From an uncultured Ectothiorhodospiraceae bacterium (GTDB lineage: Bacteria > Pseudomonadota > Gammaproteobacteria > Nevskiales > Oceanococcaceae): DNA of 64,000 nucleotides. This document shows positions 8,960-25,116 of the stretch, in pieces (position 1 is the first letter of the stretch; every line of letters starts with the position of its first letter). The DNA is taken from contig CAKZQS010000052.1 of the NCBI GenBank assembly GCA_937141935.1, positions 175,199 through 239,198 on the forward strand, in the 5' to 3' direction. A model generated the notes under the pieces. That model was not told where the DNA came from, searched no databases, and saw nothing but the letters and a program-made list of their open reading frames with translations. The translations under genes and the position numbers were made by a program.

Positions 8960-9601
8960 TCAGTCCTCCTTGGGCTCGCCCCAGAGCTGTTCCAGCCGGT
9001 CGTCACGGCCGCAGCGGCTGCGGTAGAAGCGATAGCGGATCGCGTGCTCGCGGTAATAGTCCTGGTGGTATTCCTCGGCGCGCCAGAAGTGCCCGGGCTC
9101 TTCGATGGACACGTGCACGGCGGGGAAGCGGCTGCTGTCCACCACCCGCTGCCGGCTGGCTTCGGCGATGCGCCGCTGCTCGGGGTTCAGCGGCATCAGC
9201 GCGGCGCGGTATTGGCTGCCGCTGTCACAGAACTGCCGATTGGGCGTGGTCGGGTCGACGTTCTTCCAGAAATGCGCCACCAGCGCGGCGTAGTCCACCA
9301 CCTCCGGGTCGTAGTGCACGCGCACCACTTCGGCGTGGCCGGTGCCACCGCCGGTGACCTGCTTGTAGCTGGGGTTGGCCAGCTCGCCGCCGGCATAGCC
9401 GCTGATGGCCTCCTTGACGCCGGCCAGCTTTTCGAAGTCGGCCTCCATGCACCAGAAGCAGCCGCCGGCGAAGATCGCGGTGCCGGGCTCGTCACCCACC
9501 TGGGGCGGCTCGCCGCCGGGCGTGGGCTGGGCGTACAGCGACGGGCCGGCCAGCCCGGCGCCGAGCAGCACCGCCGGCAGCCACCACAGTCTGCGGCGCA
9601 T
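8960..9601 (-). CDS. msrA: peptide-methionine (S)-S-oxide reductase MsrA, exported form
   Basis: A 213-aa protein. An N-terminal signal (MRRRLWWLPAVLLGAGLAG, cleavage near YAQ) precedes the MsrA catalytic core with GGCFWCMEADFEKL (catalytic Cys) and GYAGGELANPSYKQV, GTGHAEVV, FWRAEEYHQDYY. It reduces methionine-S-sulfoxide in oxidised proteins, here apparently in the periplasm. The start ATG at 9601 shares one base with the msrB stop (TGATG), so the two enzymes are translated together and cover both sulfoxide epimers. Confidence 0.95.
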   Translation of the reverse strand: MRRRLWWLPAVLLGAGLAGPSLYAQPTPGGEPPQVGDEPGTAIFAGGCFWCMEADFEKLAGVKEAISGYAGGELANPSYKQVTGGGTGHAEVVRVHYDPEVVDYAALVAHFWKNVDPTTPNRQFCDSGSQYRAALMPLNPEQRRIAEASRQRVVDSSRFPAVHVSIEEPGHFWRAEEYHQDYYREHAIRYRFYRSRCGRDDRLEQLWGEPKED

Positions 9602-10104
9602 CAGCCGCGCAGCTCCGGCAGCGCCTCGCCCTGAGGCACAAAGCGCAGCGCCACGCCGTTGTTGCAATAGCGCAGGCCGGTGGGCTCGGGGCCATCCTCG
9701 AATACGTGGCCCTGGTGGCCGCCGCAGCGCTTGCAGTGGTATTCGGTGCGCGGCAGCAGCAGCTTGAAGTCGGTCCGGGTGCCCAGGTGGCCCGGAATCG
9801 CGTCGTAAAAGCTGGGCCAGCCGGTGCCGGACTCATACTTCCAGCGCGACTCGAACAGCGGCAGGTAGCAGGCCCGACAGATGAACTGCCCCTCGCGCTT
9901 CTCGGCATTCAGCGGGCTGCTGCCGGCGCGCTCGGTGCCATCCTCAAACAGCACGCGAAAGGCCGCGGGGTCGTCGAGCAGCTCGCGCCACTGCGCCTTG
10001 CTGCGCTCCACGGTTTCGATCGGGCCGTGCTCGGCCTGGGCCACGCGGCTGTTACCTAGGCCCACGGCGGCGGCCAGGCCACCGAGTATCTGGCGTCGGG
10101 TCAT
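9601..10104 (-). CDS. msrB: peptide-methionine (R)-S-oxide reductase MsrB with Tat-type signal
   Basis: A 167-aa protein. The N-terminus MTRRQILGGLAAAVGLG has the twin-arginine pattern, indicating export after folding. The core has four zinc cysteines (CRAC and CKRC), SGTGWPSF and the catalytic cysteine in RYCNNGVALRF. It reduces methionine-R-sulfoxide. It lies upstream of msrA and overlaps it by one base. A Tat signal on MsrB and a Sec-like signal on MsrA point to a periplasmic repair pair distinct from MsrPQ. Confidence 0.95.
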   Translation of the reverse strand: MTRRQILGGLAAAVGLGNSRVAQAEHGPIETVERSKAQWRELLDDPAAFRVLFEDGTERAGSSPLNAEKREGQFICRACYLPLFESRWKYESGTGWPSFYDAIPGHLGTRTDFKLLLPRTEYHCKRCGGHQGHVFEDGPEPTGLRYCNNGVALRFVPQGEALPELRG

Positions 10105-11634: not shown

Positions 11635-11750
11635 GCTTGTACAGGGTCGACCGGTGCCGGGGCACGCGTCGCGGGCCGCGTTGCGCCCCGCCAAGCCCGC
11701 TGACCCCCGGCCGACCCCCGGCCGCAGCGGACGCTGGGCACAATGGGCGG

Positions 11751-12659
11751 ATGGATAGTCCCGAGTGGGCCGTACAGGCCCTGCCCTGCGACGACGGTGC
11801 GCAGCTGCGCCTGTGGCGGCCCAACCTCGCCGAGCGGCCGGCGCGGCTGCACTTTGCCCATGCCACCGGCTTTCACGCCCATACCTATGCGCCGCTGTTC
11901 GCCGCCCTCGGTGCCGACCTGCCGCTGGCCGCCTGGGACATGCGCGGCCATGGCCATTCGGGTCCGGCCGGCGACCCCAAGCGCTTCGCCGGCTGGGCCC
12001 GCTATGCCGCCGACCTGGGCGGCTGGCTGCGCGCGCAACCGGAGCCGGTCTGGCTGGCCGGGCATTCGGTGGGGGCCACCGTCAGCGCGATGGCCGCGGC
12101 GGCGCAGCCGGAGCGCGTGGCCGGGCTGATCCTGATCGAGCCGGTGCTGGTACCGCCGCTGCCCGGCCTGCTGCTGCGCCTGGGGCAGCTACTCGACCGC
12201 CCCAATATCACGCCGCTGTCGGCGGGGGCGCGGCGGCGGCGCGACCGCTTTGTCGACCATGCGCAGGCGCTGGCGGCCTGGCGCGGCCGCGGCGCCTTTC
12301 GCAGCTGGCCGGAGGAATGGTTGCTGGCCTATGTGCGCCACGCGCTGGAGCCGGACCCGGGCGGCGCGGGCCTGCGGCTGCGCTGCCGGCCGGAGTTCGA
12401 GGGCCGCAGTTTCGACCGCACGCTGGCCTGGCCCTGGGGCCTGCTGCGCCGGTTGCCGCAGCCGCCGCTGGTGCTGCTGGGCGGCTGCGCGCAAAGCACG
12501 ACCGGTGAGGCCTCGCGGCGGGCGCTGCGCCGCGTGCAGCCGCGGGCGCGTTTGCGCGTCTGGCCCCAGGCCAGCCATTTCCTGCCGATGGAGCACACGG
12601 CCGAGGTGGCCGCGGCGATCCGCGCGGCGATGGCAGACGGGCGCGTCGCCGACGCCTGA
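11751..12659 (+). CDS. alpha/beta hydrolase
   Basis: A 302-aa cytoplasmic alpha/beta hydrolase. Motifs: HATGFHAHTY in place of the usual HGxP oxyanion loop, WDMRGHGHSG, nucleophile elbow GHSVGA (Ser ~106), and the C-terminal His in QASHFLPMEHT. A helical cap (residues ~150-215) is Arg-rich. The ATG at 11751 (MDSPEWAVQ) is preferred over upstream in-frame starts because the protein alignment-like core begins there. It is divergent from the lipase-like gene and convergent with the next minus-strand hydrolase. Substrate unknown. Confidence 0.82.
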   Translation: MDSPEWAVQALPCDDGAQLRLWRPNLAERPARLHFAHATGFHAHTYAPLFAALGADLPLAAWDMRGHGHSGPAGDPKRFAGWARYAADLGGWLRAQPEPVWLAGHSVGATVSAMAAAAQPERVAGLILIEPVLVPPLPGLLLRLGQLLDRPNITPLSAGARRRRDRFVDHAQALAAWRGRGAFRSWPEEWLLAYVRHALEPDPGGAGLRLRCRPEFEGRSFDRTLAWPWGLLRRLPQPPLVLLGGCAQSTTGEASRRALRRVQPRARLRVWPQASHFLPMEHTAEVAAAIRAAMADGRVADA

Positions 12660-12683
12660 GCGCGGCGGTGGTGGCGCGCGGCC

Positions 12684-13592
12684 TCAGGCCGCCTGGCGCT
12701 CCAGGCCGTCAACGAATTCGGCGATGGCGGTCGCCACCTCGGCGCTGGCCGACAGCGGTGCCCAATGGCCGGCCTCGATGTCGCGCGTGTGCAGCTGCGC
12801 CACCCAGGGCTGGACCGCCTCAAGCAGCGCCGCCGACACGAAGGGGTCGTGGCGTGGCCGTATCAGCTGCACCGGCAGTTGCGCCTGGCGCGCGCGCGGC
12901 CGGCGCAGGCAGGGCAGCACATTGGCCCGGTACAGCCGCACGCCGGTGGCGCCGTCCTGAGCCTGTGTTGGCGATGCGGGGATCGGGTGGCGCTCCATGC
13001 GTGTCAGCAGGCGCGGCCAGGCCCGCCCCAGGCCCACCCGCCAGCCCACGGGGGCGAGCAGCGGCAGGTGAAAGAGCGCGATGTACCAGGAGCGCCGGGC
13101 CTGCGCGACCACCGCGCCGCGCCCGCCCGGCCGGGCCCATTGCTGCGCCAGCCAGTGGCCCACGTGGTCCAGGCAGGGCCCGGAGATCGAGCTGAAGCTG
13201 GCCAGGCGCGCGGCCAGGGCCGGGTCGGTGGCCGCTTCCCAACTCTGGATCGAGCCCCAGTCGTGGCCCACGAGGTGAATCGGTGCGCCGTCCTCGAGCG
13301 CATCGAGCACGCAGGCCAGATCGGACATCAGCGCGCTGAGGCGGTAATCGGCGGTGCGCTGCGGGCGGGTGGAGGCGCCGGCGCCGCGCACGTCGTAGGC
13401 CGCCACGCGGAAGTGCTGCGCGAGGCGTGGCGCGACGGCGTCCCAGACGTGGCTGCAGTCGGGGTAGCCGTGCACCAGCAGGATCCAGGGCGCGCCGGCG
13501 GGGCCGTCCCAGCGCCGCAGGTGGATCTGCTGACGGCCGTTGCTCAGGCGCTCGCTGTGGCCGGCGACGGGGGTGGGGCGGGGCGTGCTCAT
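12684..13592 (-). CDS. alpha/beta hydrolase with Asp nucleophile (epoxide hydrolase/dehalogenase-like)
   Basis: A 302-aa protein. VHGYPDCSHVWD forms the oxyanion loop. The nucleophile elbow is GHDWGS, so the nucleophile is Asp rather than Ser, as in epoxide hydrolases and haloalkane dehalogenases. A cap segment contains SWYIALFHLP, placing a Tyr as expected for epoxide hydrolases, and the C-terminal His is in EAGHWAPLS. The ATG at 13592 follows the stop of the upstream gene by 8 bp, so both are one transcript running away from the reductase operon. Confidence 0.83.
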   Translation of the reverse strand: MSTPRPTPVAGHSERLSNGRQQIHLRRWDGPAGAPWILLVHGYPDCSHVWDAVAPRLAQHFRVAAYDVRGAGASTRPQRTADYRLSALMSDLACVLDALEDGAPIHLVGHDWGSIQSWEAATDPALAARLASFSSISGPCLDHVGHWLAQQWARPGGRGAVVAQARRSWYIALFHLPLLAPVGWRVGLGRAWPRLLTRMERHPIPASPTQAQDGATGVRLYRANVLPCLRRPRARQAQLPVQLIRPRHDPFVSAALLEAVQPWVAQLHTRDIEAGHWAPLSASAEVATAIAEFVDGLERQAA

Positions 13593-13600
13593 AGGCGTGT

Positions 13601-14497
13601 TCAGTGAATCGAGGCGGAGGAATCCGGGCGGGCTGGCGGGGCGTGCAGGGCCAGCCATTCGGTGACGGCCGCGGTGAAGACGGCCGGCTGCTCGCGGTGC
13701 ATGAAGTGGCCGGCGGCGTCCAGCGTGATCAGGTCCCAGGGGCCGCTGAAGGCGCGCTCGCCGTGGGCGAAGCCGGCCGCGCGCATGCAGCCGTCCTGCG
13801 CGCCCGCGACCATTCTCGTGGGCACGCGGGTGCGGGCGAACACCGTGCGCAGCGCGCCCGGCGGGGGCCGTAGCAGCGTGCGCGGCAGCGCGCGGTAATA
13901 GGCCAGCGCGGCCTCAGGCCCTTCGGCAGCCAGCGCCGCCTTGACCGGGGCGATGTCCGCAGGCGTAAAGCGCCAGCCCGGCGACCAGTCGCGCCAGAGC
14001 TGTTCCACCAGCGCCCAGTCACTCGCCGCCAGGCGCCGCTCCGCGTCCGGGAACTGGAAACGGGCCATGTACCAGGAGTTGCGCAGCTGGCGCGGGTGCG
14101 GCCGCAGCAGGCGCGGGTGGGGCACGGCCGCCGCCACCAGGGCGCGCAGGCGCGCGGGAGCGATGTTGGCCGCACAGTAGCCGGCCACCGCGCCCCAGTC
14201 GTGGCCGATGACGGCGGCGTCGTGCCGGCCCAGCGCATCCAACAGGCCCAGCACGTCGCGGCCCAGCCGCGGCACGCTGTAGTCGCCATCCGGCGCGGCT
14301 GCGCTGGGCGGGTAGCCGCGCAGCGCCGGCGCCAGTGCGTAATAGCCCTGCGCCGCCAGCTGCGGCAGCAGCGCCTGCCAGGTGTGCGCCGTGTCCGGAA
14401 AACCGTGCAGGCACAGCACCAGCGGGGCCTCGGGATCGCCGGCCTGCAGCGCCGCAAAGCGCAACCCGTCGACGTCCAGATGCAGCCAGTCCGACAT
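13601..14497 (-). CDS. epoxide-hydrolase-like alpha/beta hydrolase
   Basis: A 298-aa protein. LHGFPDTAHTW (the HGFP motif of epoxide hydrolases), PALRGYPPS, the Asp nucleophile in GHDWGAVAG, the cap motif SWYMARFQFPDAE, and the C-terminal LDAAGHFMHREQP together fit the epoxide hydrolase subfamily. Expected reaction: hydrolysis of an epoxide to a diol via a covalent Asp ester. The start ATG at 14497 has a purine-rich GGGGGTGGGA just upstream. It is divergent by 89 bp from the reductase/MerR/di-iron operon and probably shares its control region. Confidence 0.86.
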   Translation of the reverse strand: MSDWLHLDVDGLRFAALQAGDPEAPLVLCLHGFPDTAHTWQALLPQLAAQGYYALAPALRGYPPSAAAPDGDYSVPRLGRDVLGLLDALGRHDAAVIGHDWGAVAGYCAANIAPARLRALVAAAVPHPRLLRPHPRQLRNSWYMARFQFPDAERRLAASDWALVEQLWRDWSPGWRFTPADIAPVKAALAAEGPEAALAYYRALPRTLLRPPPGALRTVFARTRVPTRMVAGAQDGCMRAAGFAHGERAFSGPWDLITLDAAGHFMHREQPAVFTAAVTEWLALHAPPARPDSSASIH

Positions 14498-14527
14498 TCC
14501 CACCCCCAAAGCGGAACCGGGCGCAGT

Positions 14528-14556
14528 TTGACAGAGCGCGGCGACAGGCACAAAGT
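14528..14556 (+). promoter_or_regulatory. promoter of the reductase-MerR-di-iron operon
   Basis: A consensus -35 TTGACA (14528-14533) is followed 17 bp later by a poor -10 CAAAGT (14551-14556). A strong -35 with a weak -10 is typical of activator-dependent promoters, including those of MerR regulators. Two short dyads follow (GCAC-AAA-GTGC and GTAC-TAC-GTAC), possible operator parts. Confidence 0.4.
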
Positions 14557-14586
14557 GCGGAGCCGTACTACGTACAGGAGAGAGAC

Positions 14587-15726
14587 ATGGCCTGGCGCTC
14601 CTGGCCCTTCGCCCCCCGCAGCGAGCCGGTGTTGATTCGCGGCCAGGCCGTGCGCTCGCGCTTTCGGCCCCAGCGCCCCGCGGCCCTGGACGATGGCGCC
14701 CCGGCGCCGGAGGGCCCGCCGGCCTGGGAGCGGGTCAGCCGCCGCGCCACCGGCCGTTTGCGCCTGAAGGTCACCGCGCTGCGGGACGAGACCCCGCTGG
14801 CGCGCAGCATCGAATACGCCCGCGTCGACGGCCAGCCGCTGCGCTGGCAGGCCGGCCAGCACCTGACCCACTGCCTGCGCCTGGACGGGCGCGAATACCG
14901 CCGCCCCTATTCGCTGTGCCACGCCCCGGGCGGCACGGTGGCAGTGACGGTGAAGCGGCTCGACGAGGGCAAGGTCTCGGGCTACCTGACCCGCGAGCTG
15001 GCGGTGGGCGACGAGGTCGAGGTGCTGCCGCCGGCCGGCGATTTCCTGCTGCCGGCGCAGGCGCCGGCGCGGATGCTGCTTCTGGCGGGCGGCTCGGGCA
15101 TTACGCCGGTGCGCGCCCTGCTGGAGGCCGCGCTGGCCTTGCCGCAGCCGCCGGAGCTGTGGCTGCTGACGGTCAACCGCAGCGCGCAGGACACGATCTT
15201 TGCCGCCGATCTGGCGGAGCTGGCGCGCCGCCACCCCCGCCTGCACTGGCTGCGGCATGAGGACGAGCGCGACGCTGTGCTGGACGCACCGGCGCTCGCC
15301 GCCTTGCTGGGCGAGGTGCCGCCCGATGCGCCCGCCTGGCTCTGCGGTCCGGCCGGCCTGATGGCAATGGCGACGCAGGTGCTGCGCGAGCGCGGCGATG
15401 CGCCCATCTTCCGCGAAGAATTCACCGCCGCGCCCAGCCCGGCCGCGGACAGCGCGCAGCTGGCGCCGCAGCCGGTGGTGTTCACCCGCAGTGGCCGCGA
15501 GGTGCGCACCAAAACCGGCGAGTCGTTGCTGGAGGCCGGCCTGCGCGCCGGCGTGGCGCTGGACTATTCCTGCACGGTCGGCGGCTGCGGCCACTGTAAG
15601 GTGCAGCTGCGTCGCGGCGAGATGCAGATGGACGAGCCGCATTGCCTCAGCGCTGCCGAGCAGGCGCAGGGCTGGCGGTTGTTGTGCGTGGGCCGGGCGC
15701 TGGGCCCGCTGGAGCTGGAGGCATGA
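14587..15726 (+). CDS. ferredoxin-NADP reductase-type flavoprotein with C-terminal [2Fe-2S] domain
   Basis: A 379-aa electron-transfer protein. Order: N-terminal extension, FAD-binding barrel with RRPYSLCHA (~residues 100-115), NAD(P)-binding domain with LLAGGSGITPVRALL and WLCGPAGLM, then a plant-type ferredoxin domain from ~300 with the cluster cysteines in CTVGGCGHC and a fourth Cys near LLCVG. This is the layout of class IA/IB reductases that feed oxygenases and desaturases. GGAGAGAG precedes the ATG at 14587. Its stop overlaps the MerR start (ATGA). The natural partner is the di-iron protein two genes on. Confidence 0.92.
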   Translation: MAWRSWPFAPRSEPVLIRGQAVRSRFRPQRPAALDDGAPAPEGPPAWERVSRRATGRLRLKVTALRDETPLARSIEYARVDGQPLRWQAGQHLTHCLRLDGREYRRPYSLCHAPGGTVAVTVKRLDEGKVSGYLTRELAVGDEVEVLPPAGDFLLPAQAPARMLLLAGGSGITPVRALLEAALALPQPPELWLLTVNRSAQDTIFAADLAELARRHPRLHWLRHEDERDAVLDAPALAALLGEVPPDAPAWLCGPAGLMAMATQVLRERGDAPIFREEFTAAPSPAADSAQLAPQPVVFTRSGREVRTKTGESLLEAGLRAGVALDYSCTVGGCGHCKVQLRRGEMQMDEPHCLSAAEQAQGWRLLCVGRALGPLELEA

Positions 15727-16484
15727 GCGGCGCGGCGCCGCAGGCTCGCGAGGCACCCGCATTACGGCTGCGCATGCGCGAGCTGGAGGCCCGCAGTGGC
15801 CTGAGCCGCGAAACCATTCGCTATTACATCGCCGAAGGTTTGCTGCCCGAGGGCGAGAAGACGGCGCGCAACATGGCCTGGTACGGGGCCGAGCACTTGC
15901 GCCGGCTGACGCTGATCCAGCAATTGCAGGAGGAGCACTTCCTGCCGCTCAAGGCCATACGCACGATCCTGGCGCAGCAGCCGCAGCACCACTTCAGCGC
16001 GGCGCAGACGCGCGTGCTGGCGGCGGTGCGCCGGCAGCTGCACAGCGAGCAGGCCAAGCGCGCGCCGCAGGCCGAGTCCGTCGGCGCGCTGCGCGCCCGC
16101 CTGCCGATCAGCGAGGACGACTGGCGGGCCATCGTGGCCAGCGGCCACGTGGAACTGGACGCCGTCGAAGGCGAGGACTACGTGGGCCCGGAGGACGTCG
16201 AGCTGCTCGAGTCCTGGGCGCAGCTGCGGCAGGCCGGTTTGTCCGCCGAGCGCGGCTTCCACGCCGGCGATCTCGACGCGCTGCAAACCGTCGTCGAGCT
16301 GCTGCTGAACCAGGAGCTGGCGCTGTTCGAGGCCCGGCTGCAGGACCTGCGCGAGGAGGAGGGCCAGGCGGTCTTCGCCAGCATCATCCCCGCCATCAAT
16401 CGCATCTTTGGCGTGCTGCACGCACGGGCCGCCCGCCGTTTTGTCGAGACCCACTACGCCGCTGGCAATCAGGAGTCCGCATGA
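15723..16484 (+). CDS. MerR-family transcriptional regulator
   Basis: A 253-aa protein. Residues ~17-85 are a MerR winged helix (MRELEARSGLSRETIRYYI, then EGLLPEG, and HLRRLTLIQQLQEE), followed by a coiled coil and a ~150-residue C-terminal effector domain without the metal-binding Cys of metal sensors. It probably senses an organic compound and controls its own operon. ATGA overlaps join it to the reductase before it and to the di-iron protein after it, an unusual central position for a regulator. Confidence 0.88.
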   Translation: MSGAAPQAREAPALRLRMRELEARSGLSRETIRYYIAEGLLPEGEKTARNMAWYGAEHLRRLTLIQQLQEEHFLPLKAIRTILAQQPQHHFSAAQTRVLAAVRRQLHSEQAKRAPQAESVGALRARLPISEDDWRAIVASGHVELDAVEGEDYVGPEDVELLESWAQLRQAGLSAERGFHAGDLDALQTVVELLLNQELALFEARLQDLREEEGQAVFASIIPAINRIFGVLHARAARRFVETHYAAGNQESA

Positions 16485-17659
16485 GCAACCACCCCGCCTT
16501 CGTCGGCATGCCCATGAGCGCGCGCAACCGCGTGACCGAGGTGCTGGAAACCATCGACATGGTCGCGCAGATCAAGAACCCCGCGGTGGCGGTCAGCATG
16601 ACGCCCTCGGCGCTGCGCGGCCTGGTGCGCAAGGACGGCAAGCGCAAACCGCATGCGCAGATGCCGGCAAAGCACAGCACGCACTTCGACCTGCGCTACG
16701 AGCTGGGCTTCCCGGAAATGCTGGAGCTGTACCGGCGCGCCGTGGACAACCAGTGGGATGGCGACCGCGACCTGCCCTGGGACACCGACGTGGATCCGCT
16801 GCACCCGGACACGCCACTGATCGCGCCGGAATGGCAGCTGTATGGCGGGCTGGAACAGTTCGGCATCAAGCTGAACCAGCGCGAGGCGGCCGAGCTGGCC
16901 TACAGCCAGGCCACCTGGATGCTGTCGAACTTCATGCATGGCGAGCAGGGCGCGCTGTACGCCTCGGCGCAGGTCACCGAGTCGGTGCGCTGGCTGGACG
17001 GCAAGCTCTACGGGGCGACGCAGGTCATGGACGAGGCGCGGCACCTGGAGGTCTTCCACCGCTATCTCGATACCAAGCTGAACAAGATCTACAAGGTCAA
17101 CGACAACCTCTTCGTCATCATCGACGATCTGCTCACCGATTCGCGCTGGGACATCAAGTTCCTGGGGATGCAGATCATGGTCGAGGGCCTGGCGCTGGGC
17201 GCATTCGCCACGCTGCACAATTGGACCCGCGAGCCGCTGCTGCGGCAGCTGCTGAAGTACGTGATCCAGGACGAGGCGCGGCATGTGCACTACGGCGTGC
17301 TGGCCCTGCGCGACCACATCACCACGCAGCTCTCGCCGGCCGAGCGGCGCGAGCGGGAGGACTGGGCCTTCGAGGTCGCGGTGCTGATGCGCAACCGCTT
17401 CATGGCCCACGAGGTCTACGAGGAGTGGTTTGAGGGCACGATCACGCGCAAGCAGTGGAACGACTTCATGCTCAACGTGGAGTCGATGCGCTACTTCCGC
17501 CACACGATGTTCAAGCGGCTGGTGCCCAACCTGGAATACATCGGCCTGCTGTCGGATCGCATGCGCGCGCACTACGAGCAGGCGGGGATGCTGGAGTTCG
17601 TGGGGGGCAAGAACGCGACGCAGTTGTCGGGTGAGGAGATGGTGGCCGAACTCGAATAG
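16481..17659 (+). CDS. ferritin-like R2-type di-iron protein, putative oxygenase
   Basis: A 392-aa protein of the ferritin-like superfamily. The carboxylate-bridged di-iron ligands are visible twice: Glu in MHGEQGAL with E..H in MDEARHLEVF, then Glu in MVEGLALG with E..H in QDEARHVHYG. This 4 Glu/2 His set is that of ribonucleotide reductase R2, AurF-like N-oxygenases, R2-like ligand oxidases and bacterial multicomponent monooxygenases. The protein is longer than AurF and no Tyr radical claim is possible. Coupling to a flavin/[2Fe-2S] reductase suggests a two-component oxygenase. The substrate is unknown. Confidence 0.8.
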   Translation: MSNHPAFVGMPMSARNRVTEVLETIDMVAQIKNPAVAVSMTPSALRGLVRKDGKRKPHAQMPAKHSTHFDLRYELGFPEMLELYRRAVDNQWDGDRDLPWDTDVDPLHPDTPLIAPEWQLYGGLEQFGIKLNQREAAELAYSQATWMLSNFMHGEQGALYASAQVTESVRWLDGKLYGATQVMDEARHLEVFHRYLDTKLNKIYKVNDNLFVIIDDLLTDSRWDIKFLGMQIMVEGLALGAFATLHNWTREPLLRQLLKYVIQDEARHVHYGVLALRDHITTQLSPAERREREDWAFEVAVLMRNRFMAHEVYEEWFEGTITRKQWNDFMLNVESMRYFRHTMFKRLVPNLEYIGLLSDRMRAHYEQAGMLEFVGGKNATQLSGEEMVAELE

Positions 17660-17680
17660 GTTGGGCCTTCGCTGGCGCTG

Positions 17681-17710
17681 GCTATGGCTATGGCTATGGC
17701 TATGGCTATG
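17681..17710 (+). repeat. hexanucleotide tandem repeat (GCTATG)x5
   Basis: Five perfect copies of GCTATG lie 21 bp after the di-iron gene stop. They are non-coding as far as can be judged; such tracts are prone to slippage. Confidence 0.95.
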
Positions 17711-17719
17711 GCGCTTCGC

Positions 17720-17818
17720 GGTCTGGCCGCTCCGGCCGCCCAGGGACGTCTGGGGGCTCCTGCACTTCTCGGCGCCATCCATGGCGCCGAGACCCTGGTC
17801 GGCCGGAGCGGCCAGACC
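17720..17818. repeat. nested long inverted repeat element
   Basis: The outer arms 17720-17738 and 17800-17818 are perfect 19-bp inverted repeats; pairing continues to 17745/17793 after one mismatch (26 bp). The inner hairpin 17767-17778/17781-17792 has perfect 12-bp arms and a 2-nt loop. A 21-nt bulge (17746-17766) separates them. It sits in the 286-bp gap between two plus-strand genes and lacks a T-run, so it is more like a REP/MITE-type element than a plain terminator. Confidence 0.8.
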
Positions 17819-17945
17819 TGATAGGGAACAGCGGGGTTTTGGTCGCGTCGGCCTTGAGGTGGTGGTGTGGGGAGTGCTCGTGCGCCGGGGGCGCACATTG
17901 CGGGGCGACTTTGCGCTTTCATCCGGGCTGGGTAGCCTTGGCGCT

Positions 17946-21074: not shown

Positions 21075-22457
21075 TTAGCGGCGGCGGCCCTGGCGCGCGA
21101 TGCGCACCATGTTCTGCGTGCGGAAGTGGTTCTTGTCGAACTCGGCTTCCTCAAACAGCGGTTGCTCGTTGGACAGCTCCATGGCCAGGTAACGGCCGGA
21201 CTGCAGGTCGTACACGATGCCGCCGGCCGGGCCGATGCTCTTGAGCCAGGGCAGCATCACCGAGTGGTATTCCTGCACGCGCCAGAGCTGATCCCGCGCG
21301 TCGTAGATGTCCACCAGCGCGATGGTCCAGGAGTCCTCGTCCACGTAGAAGGTGCGGCGCTTGTAAATGTGGCTGGTGCCCTCGCGCAGGAAGGAATCCA
21401 CCACCCACACGCGGTGCAGTTCGTAGCGCAGGTTGTCCGGCACCATGTGCCGGGCCTGGGTCAGGTCGGCGTAGCTCTTGCGGTTGTCGACCAGCTCATA
21501 GGCGTTGTAGGGGATGTAGATCTCCTTCTTGCCCACCAGCTTCCAGTCATAACGGTCGGTGGCGCCGTTGAAGACATCGAGCTGGTCATTGGTGCGCAGG
21601 CCGTCCGAGCCGGTGCCCGGGTTGTCATAGGCGACGTTGGGGGCGCGGCGTACACGGCGCTGGCCGGGGTTGTACAGCCAGGCGCGGCGGGTATCCAGCA
21701 GCTGGTCCATCGTTTCGTGCACCAGCAGAATCTGCCCCGCGATGCGCGCCGGCGCCGTGGTCAGCTGCAGGAAGTAGGTCATCACGTTGTCCAGCTCTTC
21801 CGGCCGGGCATCCGGCAGGTTGTAGGTGAACAGCACGTCTTCCTGCAGGTGCAGCTCGGTGTAGTCGCCATTGGTCTGCACGGCGAGCTGCGTGTTGTAG
21901 CGCGTGATGGACTGGCCGCGGTAGCGCGTCTTGTGGTTCCAGATCACCTCCTGGCCACTGCCCGGGATCGGGAAGGGCACGCCGGTGATGGCGTTCACCA
22001 GCGACTCGCCGAAGTTTTCCAGGCGCGCGTCGGTGGCGTTCTTTTTGGTGGCCTCGTAGTAGAAGTCCGGCGCGTGGTAGCTGCGCACCGACTTGTACAC
22101 CGGCAGGCGGAAGGTGTCGTAGGTCTCGAGCATCGCGAGCTGGCCCACACTGAGCTTGTCGCGATATTCCTCGTAGTTGTTCTGGTCAATGACAAACAGC
22201 GGCCGCTGGTCGCCAATGCCGGGGTAGCTCTCCGGGTAACGGCGGCGCGCCTCGGGCACCGGCGTCCAGTCATAGCCCCCGTCCCACTCCGGAATCGCGA
22301 CGCTGGGGTCGGTCTTGCCGTTGCCCGCCTTTTCGGCGCCGGTGGGGGTGAGATCCTGGCCCAAGCGGGCGGCTTCTTCGGCGCTGACGGCCGCGTGCGC
22401 AGCCATGCCCGTGCACGCGAAAAACGCCACGGCGGCCTTGCAGACAAAATTGGTCAC
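21075..22457 (-). CDS. DUF1329 exported protein
   Basis: A 460-aa protein with a signal peptide (residues 1-22, ...GMAAHA). The mature protein fits DUF1329, a LolA/LolB-like fold, with WDGGYDWTPVP, many aromatic residues, and the typical YHAPDFYYEATKKNA and RRVWVVDSFLREGTSHIY-type strands. Family members sit in the periplasm and are usually encoded beside DUF1302 outer-membrane proteins and RND exporters, suggesting hydrophobic-molecule transfer. Here neither partner is adjacent. Translation starts at a GTG (22457) with GGAGA about 10 nt upstream. Confidence 0.9.
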   Translation of the reverse strand: MTNFVCKAAVAFFACTGMAAHAAVSAEEAARLGQDLTPTGAEKAGNGKTDPSVAIPEWDGGYDWTPVPEARRRYPESYPGIGDQRPLFVIDQNNYEEYRDKLSVGQLAMLETYDTFRLPVYKSVRSYHAPDFYYEATKKNATDARLENFGESLVNAITGVPFPIPGSGQEVIWNHKTRYRGQSITRYNTQLAVQTNGDYTELHLQEDVLFTYNLPDARPEELDNVMTYFLQLTTAPARIAGQILLVHETMDQLLDTRRAWLYNPGQRRVRRAPNVAYDNPGTGSDGLRTNDQLDVFNGATDRYDWKLVGKKEIYIPYNAYELVDNRKSYADLTQARHMVPDNLRYELHRVWVVDSFLREGTSHIYKRRTFYVDEDSWTIALVDIYDARDQLWRVQEYHSVMLPWLKSIGPAGGIVYDLQSGRYLAMELSNEQPLFEEAEFDKNHFRTQNMVRIARQGRRR

Positions 22458-23116: not shown

Positions 23117-24166
23117 TCAGGGCGCCGGGTTGGGCTGGCCCGCGTGAATGGTTTCGATCGCCTCCAGCAGGCTGGAATCCAGCGTCAGCGCGGCGCTGGC
23201 CAGGTTGGCCTCGAGCTGGTGCATCGTGGTGGCACCGATCAGGTTGCTGCGCAGGAAGGGGCGGCTGTTGATGTAGGCCAGCGCCATCTGCGCCGGGTCC
23301 AGATCCCGCTCGCGCGCCAGCGCGACATAGGCCCGGGTCGCGGCCTCGGCCTGGGCATTGGTGTAGCGGGCAAAACGGCTGAAGCGGGTCAGGCGGGCGC
23401 CCTCGGGGCGGGCGCCATCCAGGTACTTGCCGCTGAGCACACCGAAGGCGAGCGGCGAATAGGCCAGCAGGCCCACGTCCTCGCGGTGGGCGAACTCGGC
23501 CAGGCCGACCTCGTAGCTGCGGTTGAGCAGGCTGTAGGGGTTTTGCACAGACACGATGCGCGGCAGGCCCTGTTCGCGCGCCAGGCGCAGGTACTCGGCC
23601 ACGCCCCAGGGCGTTTCGTTGGACACGCCGATGTGGCGGATCTTGCCCTCCTGCTGCAGCGCGGCCAGCGCCTGCAGCGTTTCTTCGATGGGGATGCCGT
23701 CGTCACTGCCGGGGGTGTAACCGAGCTGGCCGAAGAAGTTGGTGCTGCGCTCCGGCCAGTGCACCTGGTAGAGGTCGATGCAGTCCAGGCGCAGGCGGCG
23801 CAGGCTGTCCTCGCAGGCTTGGCGGATCTGCGCGGCATCCAGCCGCGGGCCGCCGCGGATCCAGTCCATGTTGGTCGAGCGGCCGGTGACCTTGGTGGCG
23901 ATGACCAAGCCCTCGCTGCCGCCGCGGCGCGCCAACCAGTCGCCCAGAATCTCCTCGGTGCGGCCCTGGGTCTGCCCGCGGGGCGGCACCGGGTACATCT
24001 CGGCCGCATCGATCAGCGTCACGCCCGCCTCGGTGGCGCCGTCGAGCTGCACGAAGGCGTCCTCCGGCGTGTTCTGCTCCCCCCAGGTCATGGTTCCCAG
24101 GCCGATCAGGCTGACCTCGGGGCCAGCGGCTCCCAGGCGGCGGGTGGGCATCGACTGCGGGCTCAT
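23117..24166 (-). CDS. tas: NADP(H)-dependent aldo-keto reductase Tas
   Basis: A 349-aa TIM-barrel reductase closely following E. coli Tas: LGLGTMTWGEQNTPEDA, DAAEMYPVPPRG, ATKVTG, DLYQVHWPERSTNFFGQLGY, VSNETPWGV and QNPYSLLNRSYEVGLAE. The catalytic tetrad Asp/Tyr/Lys/His is present. Family knowledge: Tas was found as a suppressor of tyrosine auxotrophy under starvation; its physiological substrate is unsettled. ATGA overlap with the phosphoribulokinase stop places it last in the thiS operon. Confidence 0.93.
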   Translation of the reverse strand: MSPQSMPTRRLGAAGPEVSLIGLGTMTWGEQNTPEDAFVQLDGATEAGVTLIDAAEMYPVPPRGQTQGRTEEILGDWLARRGGSEGLVIATKVTGRSTNMDWIRGGPRLDAAQIRQACEDSLRRLRLDCIDLYQVHWPERSTNFFGQLGYTPGSDDGIPIEETLQALAALQQEGKIRHIGVSNETPWGVAEYLRLAREQGLPRIVSVQNPYSLLNRSYEVGLAEFAHREDVGLLAYSPLAFGVLSGKYLDGARPEGARLTRFSRFARYTNAQAEAATRAYVALARERDLDPAQMALAYINSRPFLRSNLIGATTMHQLEANLASAALTLDSSLLEAIETIHAGQPNPAP

Positions 24167-25116
24167 GCGGGAGGCTCCTGTGCGGGGGGGATGGGGGGCG
24201 CCGCGACCGCGGCCTCGGCCTCGGCCTCGGCCTCGGCGCGCAGCAGTGCGCGGCGACGGTCGAGCAGGCCGGCGACCACGGCGCGCAGCACCAGCTCCAT
24301 GGCCAGCGCACCGTTGGCACCGGGCACCACCAGGGTGTTGGGCCGCGAGGTCCAGGCGCCGCTGACCATCGACAGCACATAGGGCAGATCCACCGGCACG
24401 GCCGAGGGCCGGGCGACGCGGATCACCATCATGCTTTCCTCGGCGGTGGGGATGCCCTGCGCCGCGAAGGGGTTCGAGGTATCGACCAGCGGCACCCGCT
24501 GGAAGTTGATGTGGGTGCGCGAGAACTGCGGGATGATGTAATTCACATAGTCCGGCATGCGCCGCAGGATGGTGCGCGAGATGTCCTCGGCGCTGTGGCC
24601 GCGCTCTTCCATGTCGCGGCGGATCTTCTGCACCCACTCCAGGTTGATGGTCGGCGTCATGCCGATCAGCAGGTCCACATGCTGGGCGATGTTGTGGTTT
24701 TCGGTCACCACGCCGCCATGCAGGCCCTCATAGAGCAGCACGTCGGTCTGCGCCGGCAGCGGCGCCCAGGGCGTGAAGGTGCCCACCTCGCCGCCGTGCT
24801 CGGCGGCCTCTTCCACGCTGTGCAGGTAATGACGGCTGTGGCCGCTGCCCTGGCGGCCGTATTCCTCGAACAGCGCCTCCAGGCGGTCGAAATGGTTGGC
24901 GGCCGGGCCGAAGTGGCTGAAGTTCTCGCCGCGGATCTTGGCCCGCTGGATGCCGGCCTGCATCTGCGCCCGGTCATAGGCGTGGAAGGCATCGCCGTCG
25001 ACGTAGGCGGCCTTGGCGCCAAGCAGCGCGAAGAGCTGCTCAAAGACCTTGCGCGCCGTGCTCGTCCCCGCCCCCGAGGAGCCGGTCACCGCAATGATCG
25101 GGTGGCGCGTGGACAT
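24163..25116 (-). CDS. prkB: phosphoribulokinase (PrkB-like)
   Basis: A 317-aa P-loop kinase. Walker A is GSSGAGTS (residues ~11-18); GDAFHAYDRAQM and LLYEGLHGG follow, then VDTSNPFAAQGIPTAEES and WTSRPNTLVVPG, as in E. coli PrkB. It would phosphorylate ribulose-5-phosphate to RuBP, but no RuBisCO gene is in view and E. coli-type homologues exist in non-autotrophs. The C-terminal ~25 residues are an Ala/Glu/Pro tail encoded by GGCCTC repeats. It starts 2 bp after the trmB stop. Confidence 0.9.
   Translation of the reverse strand: MSTRHPIIAVTGSSGAGTSTARKVFEQLFALLGAKAAYVDGDAFHAYDRAQMQAGIQRAKIRGENFSHFGPAANHFDRLEALFEEYGRQGSGHSRHYLHSVEEAAEHGGEVGTFTPWAPLPAQTDVLLYEGLHGGVVTENHNIAQHVDLLIGMTPTINLEWVQKIRRDMEERGHSAEDISRTILRRMPDYVNYIIPQFSRTHINFQRVPLVDTSNPFAAQGIPTAEESMMVIRVARPSAVPVDLPYVLSMVSGAWTSRPNTLVVPGANGALAMELVLRAVVAGLLDRRRALLRAEAEAEAEAAVAAPPIPPAQEPPA

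Follow-up and report, generated by a model that had tools for sequence, protein, structure and literature searches.

A reductase, MerR regulator and R2-like di-metal protein operon as a candidate hydrocarbon-induced monooxygenase in an uncultured Ectothiorhodospiraceae bacterium

Background

The R2-like ligand-binding oxidase GkR2loxI (GK2771) of Geobacillus kaustophilus has been reported to be an alkane monooxygenase, and a loss of C10-C22 alkanes was reported with the crude enzyme (PMC10867098, excerpted text). The isobutylene monooxygenase is a soluble di-iron monooxygenase (SDIMO) that occurs with an epoxide hydrolase, IbcK (PMC13188929, excerpt), and the known or presumed regulators of alkane genes include MerR, TetR and AraC proteins (PMC3664771, Table 1 as excerpted). 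In the ferritin-like di-iron superfamily, a third histidine forms part of the motif HxxDExxH, and CylC carries QExxH (PMC12101540, excerpt).

The locus described here lies in a stretch of 64,000 nucleotides, referred to as the window, from an uncultured Ectothiorhodospiraceae bacterium (GCA_937141935.1, contig CAKZQS010000052.1, positions 175,199 to 239,198). It comprises genes for a reductase (RED), a MerR-family regulator and a di-metal protein (DIIRON), next to two epoxide-hydrolase-like genes, EH1 and EH2 (Table 1). Searches of an open-access library for the DIIRON family or its regulator listed no paper with the family named in the title or at the beginning of the abstract, and the excerpts of PMC12915131 (BioE), PMC11854999 and PMC10654063 contain nothing decisive.

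Results and discussion

Organization of the locus

As the initial annotation had described, RED, the MerR gene and DIIRON are joined by an ATGA overlap at both joints, and the hydrolase genes are divergent from them across the 89-bp spacer between EH2 and RED (14498-14586). A 21-bp inverted repeat upstream of the RED-MerR-DIIRON operon (14555-14575) is newly reported here. No sigma-70 promoter match was obtained in a scan of positions 12600-17900. The GC3 of the operon genes (0.90-0.94) resembles that of their neighbours (0.81-0.92), and there is therefore no sign of a recent import of the operon.

Table 1. Features of the locus (window coordinates)
Feature	Position	Strand	Description
RED	14587-15726	+	FAD/NAD(P)H/[2Fe-2S] oxidoreductase; predicted to supply DIIRON with electrons
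MerR-family regulator	15723-16484	+	C-terminal half resembles a second winged helix
DIIRON	16481-17659	+	predicted di-metal oxygenase with an R2 fold; ligands E155, E185xxH188, E235, E265xxH268
EH2	13601-14497	-	ATG start; epoxide-hydrolase-like alpha/beta hydrolase; module membership unsupported
EH1	12684-13658	-	epoxide-hydrolase-like alpha/beta hydrolase; like the PRK05855 hydrolase half without the SDR half; neighbour
alpha/beta hydrolase	11742-12659	+	relatives (48% identity) within the RED-MerR-DIIRON string of L092-L094
operator-like 21-bp dyad GTGCGGAG-CCGTA-CTACGTAC	14555-14575	n/a	putative operator
TTGACA, -35-like	14528-14533	+	21 nt upstream of the dyad; same spacing in L064

A hydrolase gene like that at 11742-12659, followed by membrane-fusion and RND genes, was also seen in a genome of the same genus (G001) and in locus L092. 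A joint hydrolase and RND efflux unit is not proposed, because the RND pumps of the two are related only distantly (295.9 vs 2118 bits with one profile).

DIIRON is a predicted R2-like protein outside the known classes compared

The predicted structure of DIIRON is R2/R2lox-like (pLDDT 89) and has the R2-type fold expected of an R2lox protein. Ribonucleotide reductase (RNR) R2 chains tie on fold among its structural matches and R2lox structures rank high; storage ferritins are not among the matches listed, which says little by itself. The sole Pfam match is to PF00268 (ribonucleotide reductase R2), at 20.8 bits under a gathering cut-off of 33.6, and the score with the NCBIfam R2lox model NF006200 (29.5 bits) is well under the cut-off of 194.

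R2lox proteins have a two-His/four-Glu metal set and a Tyr-Val crosslink near the metals, and RNR R2 proteins a radical tyrosine four residues after the histidine of the first ExxH, which some R2 classes lack. The two-His/four-Glu set is complete in DIIRON and invariant in all 120 homologues listed. Mapped by offset from the ligands and not by structure, the crosslink Tyr and Val are replaced by A158 and M230 and the radical-tyrosine position is Phe192, again in 120/120 listed homologues. Position 261, which we take to be that of the third histidine of AurF, is occupied by V in 117 of them and by I in the other 3, and D184 is found in all 120, giving DExxH in place of the QExxH of CylC. DIIRON belongs to a genuine family: of 8000 candidates that were scored, at least 6788 are relatives at E <= 0.001. 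Some relatives bear a precomputed PF11583 label, and the names among the 120 listed are 'ferritin-like domain-containing protein', hypothetical or, in one case, p-aminobenzoate N-oxygenase-like.

RED accompanies DIIRON in many relatives

RED contains FAD_binding_6 (PF00970), NAD_binding_1 (PF00175) and C-terminal Fer2 (PF00111) domains, all above the Pfam cut-offs, and thus has the FAD, NAD and C-terminal 2Fe-2S domains of a flavin/[2Fe-2S] reductase; with the PaaE model it scores 164 bits, below the cut-off of 420.8. RED or its [2Fe-2S] end adjoins DIIRON on the upstream side in 38 of 65 relative loci, and the loci without it (27/65) include the DIIRON relatives below about 54% identity. Besides RED, itself not universal, no neighbour is common to all DIIRON relatives. 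The local regulators vary and belong to the MerR, TetR and AraC families; the window's MerR is missing from 54 of the 65 loci, AlkB is present in one and AmoC in none. Distant kin adjoin carrier proteins and a thioesterase, or cobaltochelatase-like genes, and the functions within the DIIRON family therefore vary. SDIMO beta and gamma subunits and the coupling protein were absent from the eight neighbouring proteins scanned.

In the tree, which leaves out L005, L042, L043 and L037, the DIIRON proteins of L091, L092 and L004 are close kin; alignment A1 omits ten loci (L049-L054, L057-L059 and L061). Six records of the plasmid collection contain DIIRON relatives, each below 60% identity. Cultured bacteria that carry DIIRON include Mangrovitalea sediminis (L001) and Zavarzinia marina (L004).

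The MerR regulator, its dyad and the neighbouring AmoCAB and AlkB genes

The regulator has the N-terminal winged helix of the MerR family, matching MerR_1 (PF13411) at 65 bits (cut-off 21.6), and its AlphaFold model has a pLDDT of 88.2 and a pTM of 0.64. The 21-bp inverted repeat was found upstream of the operon in all eight testable MerR loci, which belong to the window's order, Zavarzinia and a Sericytochromatia MAG; this count excludes L093 and L094, which duplicate L092, L005, which duplicates L004, and L002, which lacks upstream sequence. Because L063 is nearly identical to L064, the eight loci represent at most seven independent cases. None of 54 other relative loci had an equally good inverted repeat. 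The dyad of the window is weak (14 of 16, 6 of 8 symmetric). A pattern fitted to this dyad, with one mismatch allowed, matches nowhere else in the 3.57-Mb genome. A genome-wide scan for the dyad gave 18 sites, against 21 for the reversed pattern, and so no excess; 9 of the 18 sites have no such MerR gene within about 5 kb. The dyad is the kind of element that regulators bind, and MerR is predicted to bind it.

Five of the 16 AmoC-type copper monooxygenase genes in the window's order adjoin a MerR relative (0.05 expected), and the dyad lies upstream of three of these AmoC genes. AlkB genes lie within 6 kb of a MerR relative in four cases against 0.17 expected, AlkB copies being counted solely in genomes with a strong MerR; in L155, a MerR-family gene and the dyad are upstream of alkB. 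AlkB is, however, common in the order (73/85 genomes), and its nearness to MerR therefore weighs little, so that the hydrocarbon case depends mostly on AmoCAB and the dyad. Of the four proteins labelled AlkB, two owe the label to PF00487 and three to matches with solved alkane 1-monooxygenases; none of the four matches an NCBIfam family.

In L156, AmoB scores 546 bits with the bacterial ammonia-monooxygenase model, above the cut-off of 336, and AmoC and AmoA score slightly under their own cut-offs. On such matches, the AmoCAB proteins beside MerR relatives need not be hydrocarbon oxidisers. The 28 best of 50 MerR matches (E <= 1e-34) were examined, the 22 weaker ones being excluded; the 27 other than the window's are 33-44% identical to it and may sense different things. 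The search for their neighbours used 13 query proteins, and genes of other kinds would have escaped it.

Proposed function

We consider it somewhat probable (about 0.55) that the conserved operon encodes a di-metal monooxygenase that depends on NADH and is induced by hydrocarbons. The operon would be switched on when a hydrocarbon, or an early product of its oxidation, acts on MerR at the dyad. Electrons from NADH would reach the metal pair of DIIRON by way of the FAD and [2Fe-2S] of RED, and DIIRON would activate O2 and hydroxylate a long hydrophobic chain, or epoxidise it at a double bond. We infer the direction of control, the inducer, the identity of the metals, the substrate, the product and the pairing of RED with DIIRON; DIIRON itself is linked to hydrocarbons only by association through the regulator.

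The initial annotation had proposed a MerR-controlled oxygenase and epoxide-opening pathway for an unknown organic compound. Its reductase-fed di-metal module under MerR is supported by the conservation of RED, the dyad before the operon and the R2/R2lox-like fold, and the compound can be narrowed, through the MerR family, to a likely hydrocarbon. The epoxide-opening half of that pathway is not supported by conservation: in the survey of DIIRON homologues, RED was often nearby, but the hydrolases do not travel along.

More tentatively, and with rather less confidence than in the operon itself, DIIRON may represent a family of soluble two-component alkane hydroxylases that have an R2 scaffold but differ from R2lox, AlkB, CYP153, LadA/AlmA and SDIMO, extending from Gammaproteobacteria to Mycobacteriales and Myxococcota, with a MerR-operator switch common to the AlkB and copper membrane monooxygenases of the order. 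If DIIRON oxidises hydrocarbons, surveys of oil-degradation genes that count known markers such as AlkB overlook one type of oxidiser, and the dyad operator would offer a direct reporter test for inducers.

Alternative explanations

EH1 and EH2 match Abhydrolase_1/6 in Pfam, and both appear to carry epoxide-hydrolase motifs. EH2 aligns over its full length with the solved epoxide hydrolase 5ng7, matching GHDWG, SWY, YYR, Asp and His, and so has the Asp nucleophile, two cap tyrosines and Asp-His relay of such enzymes. EH1 aligns in two pieces, of which only the first, with the nucleophile, is significant; the second, which holds one Tyr, the Asp and the His, falls far short of it, and the cap stretch is unaligned. 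In NCBIfam, EH1 scores best with the hydrolase half of PRK05855, at 337.7 bits against a cut-off of 455. These motifs, the divergent layout with the dyad in the spacer and the precedent of the isobutylene ibc cluster (PMC13188929, excerpt) would suit a single pathway in which the oxygenase makes an epoxide, EH1 and EH2 open it and MerR controls all from the common spacer. However, in G001, the one same-genus genome compared, the EH2-EH1 pair is kept at the syntenic place without RED-MerR-DIIRON, and neither DIIRON (at E <= 0.001) nor MerR (at E <= 1e-10) has a match in that genome. Among 45 loci, an EH1-like gene (37%) lies about 1 kb behind DIIRON only in L007; L035 and L045 have partial, weaker matches at a distance of about 6 kb. 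Elsewhere in the order, the EH1 and EH2 relatives listed for genomes with DIIRON are at least 70 kb from it or on other contigs. The G001 synteny led us to abandon the single pathway as the leading interpretation, and it now appears improbable. EH1 and EH2 are probably mere neighbours of the operon, and EH2 could be co-regulated in the window genome through the common spacer.

A stronger competitor, still unlikely, is that DIIRON is a lipid-induced oxygenase acting as hydroxylase, desaturase or epoxidase on acyl-CoA, acyl-carrier or membrane-lipid substrates. A 4HBT thioesterase within the L092 gene string, a phytanoyl-CoA dioxygenase upstream of RED in L086, WS/DGAT or CFA synthase genes close to MerR relatives (L156, L161, L194, L195 and L205), carrier proteins adjoining a 34% DIIRON relative on a Streptomyces plasmid and a weak sequence match of DIIRON to aldehyde-deformylating oxygenase (E 0.0018) all point this way, but each such partner recurs in few loci at most, and the occurrence of AmoCAB and AlkB next to members of this MerR family indicates a step upstream of the acyl level. 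That DIIRON is instead a radical-generating or non-catalytic protein, such as RNR R2 or a storage ferritin, mistaken for an oxygenase is very improbable: the tie with R2 chains and the weak PF00268 match are offset by a score under the Pfam cut-off and by the invariant Phe, by offset, where the radical Tyr is usual, and a dedicated reductase and own regulator would seem ill-suited to storage.

Comparison with known systems

The candidate hydrocarbon monooxygenase shares with GkR2loxI an R2-type fold and a two-His/four-Glu set, as we take that of R2lox to be, but it falls under the R2lox model cut-off, lacks the crosslink Tyr and Val and is adjoined by a reductase and a regulator. MerR, AraC and TetR regulators occur beside DIIRON, as they do with AlkB operons in the excerpted source; AlkB, by contrast, belongs to the FA_desaturase family (PF00487) and is a membrane enzyme, not R2-like. 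The AmoCAB/PmoCAB copper monooxygenases have the same MerR family beside them in the window's order, but are membrane enzymes unrelated to DIIRON, with ammonia, methane or a longer hydrocarbon as candidate substrates. Like the SDIMO system, as far as the excerpt describes it, the window combines a predicted di-iron-type oxygenase, a reductase and a nearby epoxide hydrolase gene; it has a single oxygenase gene in place of the alpha, beta, gamma and coupling subunits. The N-oxygenase AurF and the halogenases CylC and NocO belong, like DIIRON, to the ferritin-like di-iron superfamily (PMC12101540, excerpt); DIIRON differs from these enzymes in having V or I in place of the third histidine and DExxH in place of the CylC motif.

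Gene cluster and protein families

The window sequence confirmed the five genes of the initial annotation, the ATGA overlaps at both junctions and the spacer of 89 bp. FAD, NAD and [2Fe-2S] domains are all present in the reductase (RED), for which PaaE is the nearest curated model, with a score well under the cut-off. No curated family matched the R2-type di-metal protein (DIIRON) above cut-off; 6788 of the 8000 candidates scored are relatives at E <= 0.001, and the names among the 120 matches listed are 'ferritin-like domain-containing protein', hypothetical protein and, once, p-aminobenzoate N-oxygenase. A perfect TGGCTA array lies shortly after the DIIRON stop codon.

Table. Features of the window and arrangement of related loci
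Feature	Position	Strand	Remark
MsrA/MsrB genes	8960-10104		called by eye
Hydrolase	10257
Hydrolase	11637
EH1	12684-13658	-	epoxide-hydrolase-like
EH2	13601-14497	-	epoxide-hydrolase-like
Dyad	14555-14575		21-bp inverted repeat
RED	14587-15726	+
MerR	15723-16484	+
DIIRON	16481-17659	+
TGGCTA array	17679-17712		5.7 hexanucleotide copies
Peptidase-like gene	20017
DUF1329 gene	21075-22457
Aldo/keto reductase gene	23117-24637		adjoins DUF1329 gene
L155			[15 protein letters not shown]1302-DUF1329-MMPL
L156			MerR-dyad-AmoC-AmoA-AmoB
L161			MerR-(one gene)-dyad-AmoCAB
L159	G002:C2 8000-18000		perfect dyad between divergent DUF1329 and MMPL genes

Epoxide-hydrolase-like pair

Relatives of EH1 (E <= 1e-40) and EH2 (E <= 1e-30) occur in 59 and 55, respectively, of the 85 compared genomes of the host's order. 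The sole other genome of the host's genus in the comparison (G001) keeps the order from the MsrA/MsrB genes through the two hydrolases, EH1 and EH2 to the peptidase-like gene, with an efflux pair inserted ahead of EH1; this stretch is devoid of RED, MerR, DIIRON and the two genes behind them, and the whole G001 genome gave no DIIRON or MerR match at the thresholds applied. The EH1-EH2 pair thus predates its link to the oxygenase or has an origin independent of it, which argues against the earlier proposal that hydrolases and oxygenase form one pathway.

Neighbours and descent of DIIRON

Gene neighbourhoods were read in 65 loci of DIIRON relatives (sets of 45, 8 and 12), leaving out P0002-P0004, which are 82-83% identical. 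A RED match lies immediately upstream of DIIRON in 38 loci, among them L002, which a contig edge truncates; profile search (1e-10) gave none in the other 27, of which L042 begins at a contig end. The RED match is confined to the final ~100 residues in L016, L017 and L019, where it may be a separate ferredoxin. A MerR homologue occurs in 11/65 loci, ten times between RED and DIIRON and once divergently (L095). Among loci scanned for other regulators, TetR was found in L006, L007, L014, L025 and L028 and AraC in L001 and L013, as assigned from single representatives.

DIIRON relatives ~38-41% identical lie near CobS/CobT-like (AAA + VWA) genes in L066 (called by Pfam), L067 and L069 (by common BLAST clusters). 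On a Streptomyces plasmid (L154), the gene cluster around a 34% relative comprises carrier proteins, AMP-binding enzymes, an acyl-CoA dehydrogenase and a PaaI thioesterase, a hint that substrates are carrier-bound in this distant branch.

The tree joins the window to Mangrovitalea, Veronia and two unclassified Gammaproteobacteria (98) and places the two genomes of its own family elsewhere. RED+MerR requires four changes on this tree, hence a patchy history of the cassette. DIIRON is present in 12/85 genomes of the order, one by a weak 34% match. In L029, whose record bears the title Klebsiella pneumoniae MAG, the relative forms a pair with the one of a Myxococcota MAG (support 84); this record is perhaps a mislabelled or mixed bin.

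MerR family and putative operator

The predicted MerR structure contains a helix-helix-strand-strand-helix at 18-72 and again at 120-170, which gives the effector half the look of a degenerate second winged helix. The closest solved structure (Foldseek) is SCO5550 (2dg6).

An inverted repeat, GTGYRTAG-N5-CTAYRCAC, precedes RED in MerR loci. Seven loci served to derive this consensus, so their own scores are partly circular; L017, a Sericytochromatia MAG outside this set, scores 16/16. In all 8 testable MerR loci no other position of the locus matches as well as the dyad, whereas 54 relative loci without this MerR score at most 13, and a pattern fitted to the window's dyad with one mismatch permitted matches the host genome once, at this site. 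When one mismatch was allowed, the consensus had 18 sites in the 85 genomes and its reversed control 21, so there is no overall excess. When the surroundings of all 18 were examined, nine had a MerR of this family within ~1.2 kb: six precede RED, and at three (L155, L156, L161) the MerR relative accompanies other oxygenases; the other nine have no such MerR within ~5 kb, three being near DUF1329 or MMPL genes. The L159 dyad is ~5 kb away from an AmoCAB-associated MerR relative.

MerR comparisons were mostly made within one order. Of 50 MerR matches, the 28 at E <= 1e-34 (window included) were examined: eight neighbour DIIRON, five AmoCAB and three AlkB, seven lack these oxygenases but lie within ~5 kb of DUF1302, DUF1329 or MMPL genes, and five are near none of these. 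Such a MerR lies within 6 kb of AmoC (16 copies in 13/85 genomes) five times against 0.05 expected, and of AlkB (73/85 genomes) four times against 0.17, the Poisson expectations taking genomes as independent although they are related. Three of these four AlkBs match solved alkane 1-monooxygenases (409-630 bits). Dyad-like sites of at least 14/16 occur in 8/20 non-DIIRON MerR loci versus 0/54 others, and in 5/17 without three pattern-found loci (Fisher P 0.0005), two of these five (L194, L201) not being at a recognised promoter. The window's DUF1329 gene and adjoining aldo/keto reductase gene lie at least 3.4 kb behind the module; at other loci, too, genes for DUF1329 proteins occur together with this MerR family.

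Candidate substrates of DIIRON

That the same kind of switch precedes AlkB, AmoCAB-type monooxygenases and DIIRON suggests that the last is a further hydrocarbon oxidiser. The iron alcohol dehydrogenase gene downstream of DIIRON in L002, a locus cut by a contig edge, and the AlkB near DIIRON in L091 fit this reading. AmoCAB is its weak point, because the family includes ammonia monooxygenases and the AmoB of L156 passes that model. The main rival, that DIIRON acts on acyl substrates, draws on thioesterase, PhyH, WS/DGAT and CFA-synthase neighbours. The host genome encodes one AlkB elsewhere, and a search of it found no AmoC; as a hydrocarbon oxidiser, DIIRON would therefore supplement, not replace, an alkane hydroxylase.

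An R2lox has been reported as an alkane monooxygenase in crude lysate (PMC10867098), and a MerR-like candidate regulator has been described with an alkene monooxygenase on one side and an epoxide carboxylase cluster on the other (PMC8784404). MerR, AraC and TetR, the regulator families found beside DIIRON, are listed in PMC3664771 among the families known or presumed to regulate alkane pathways.
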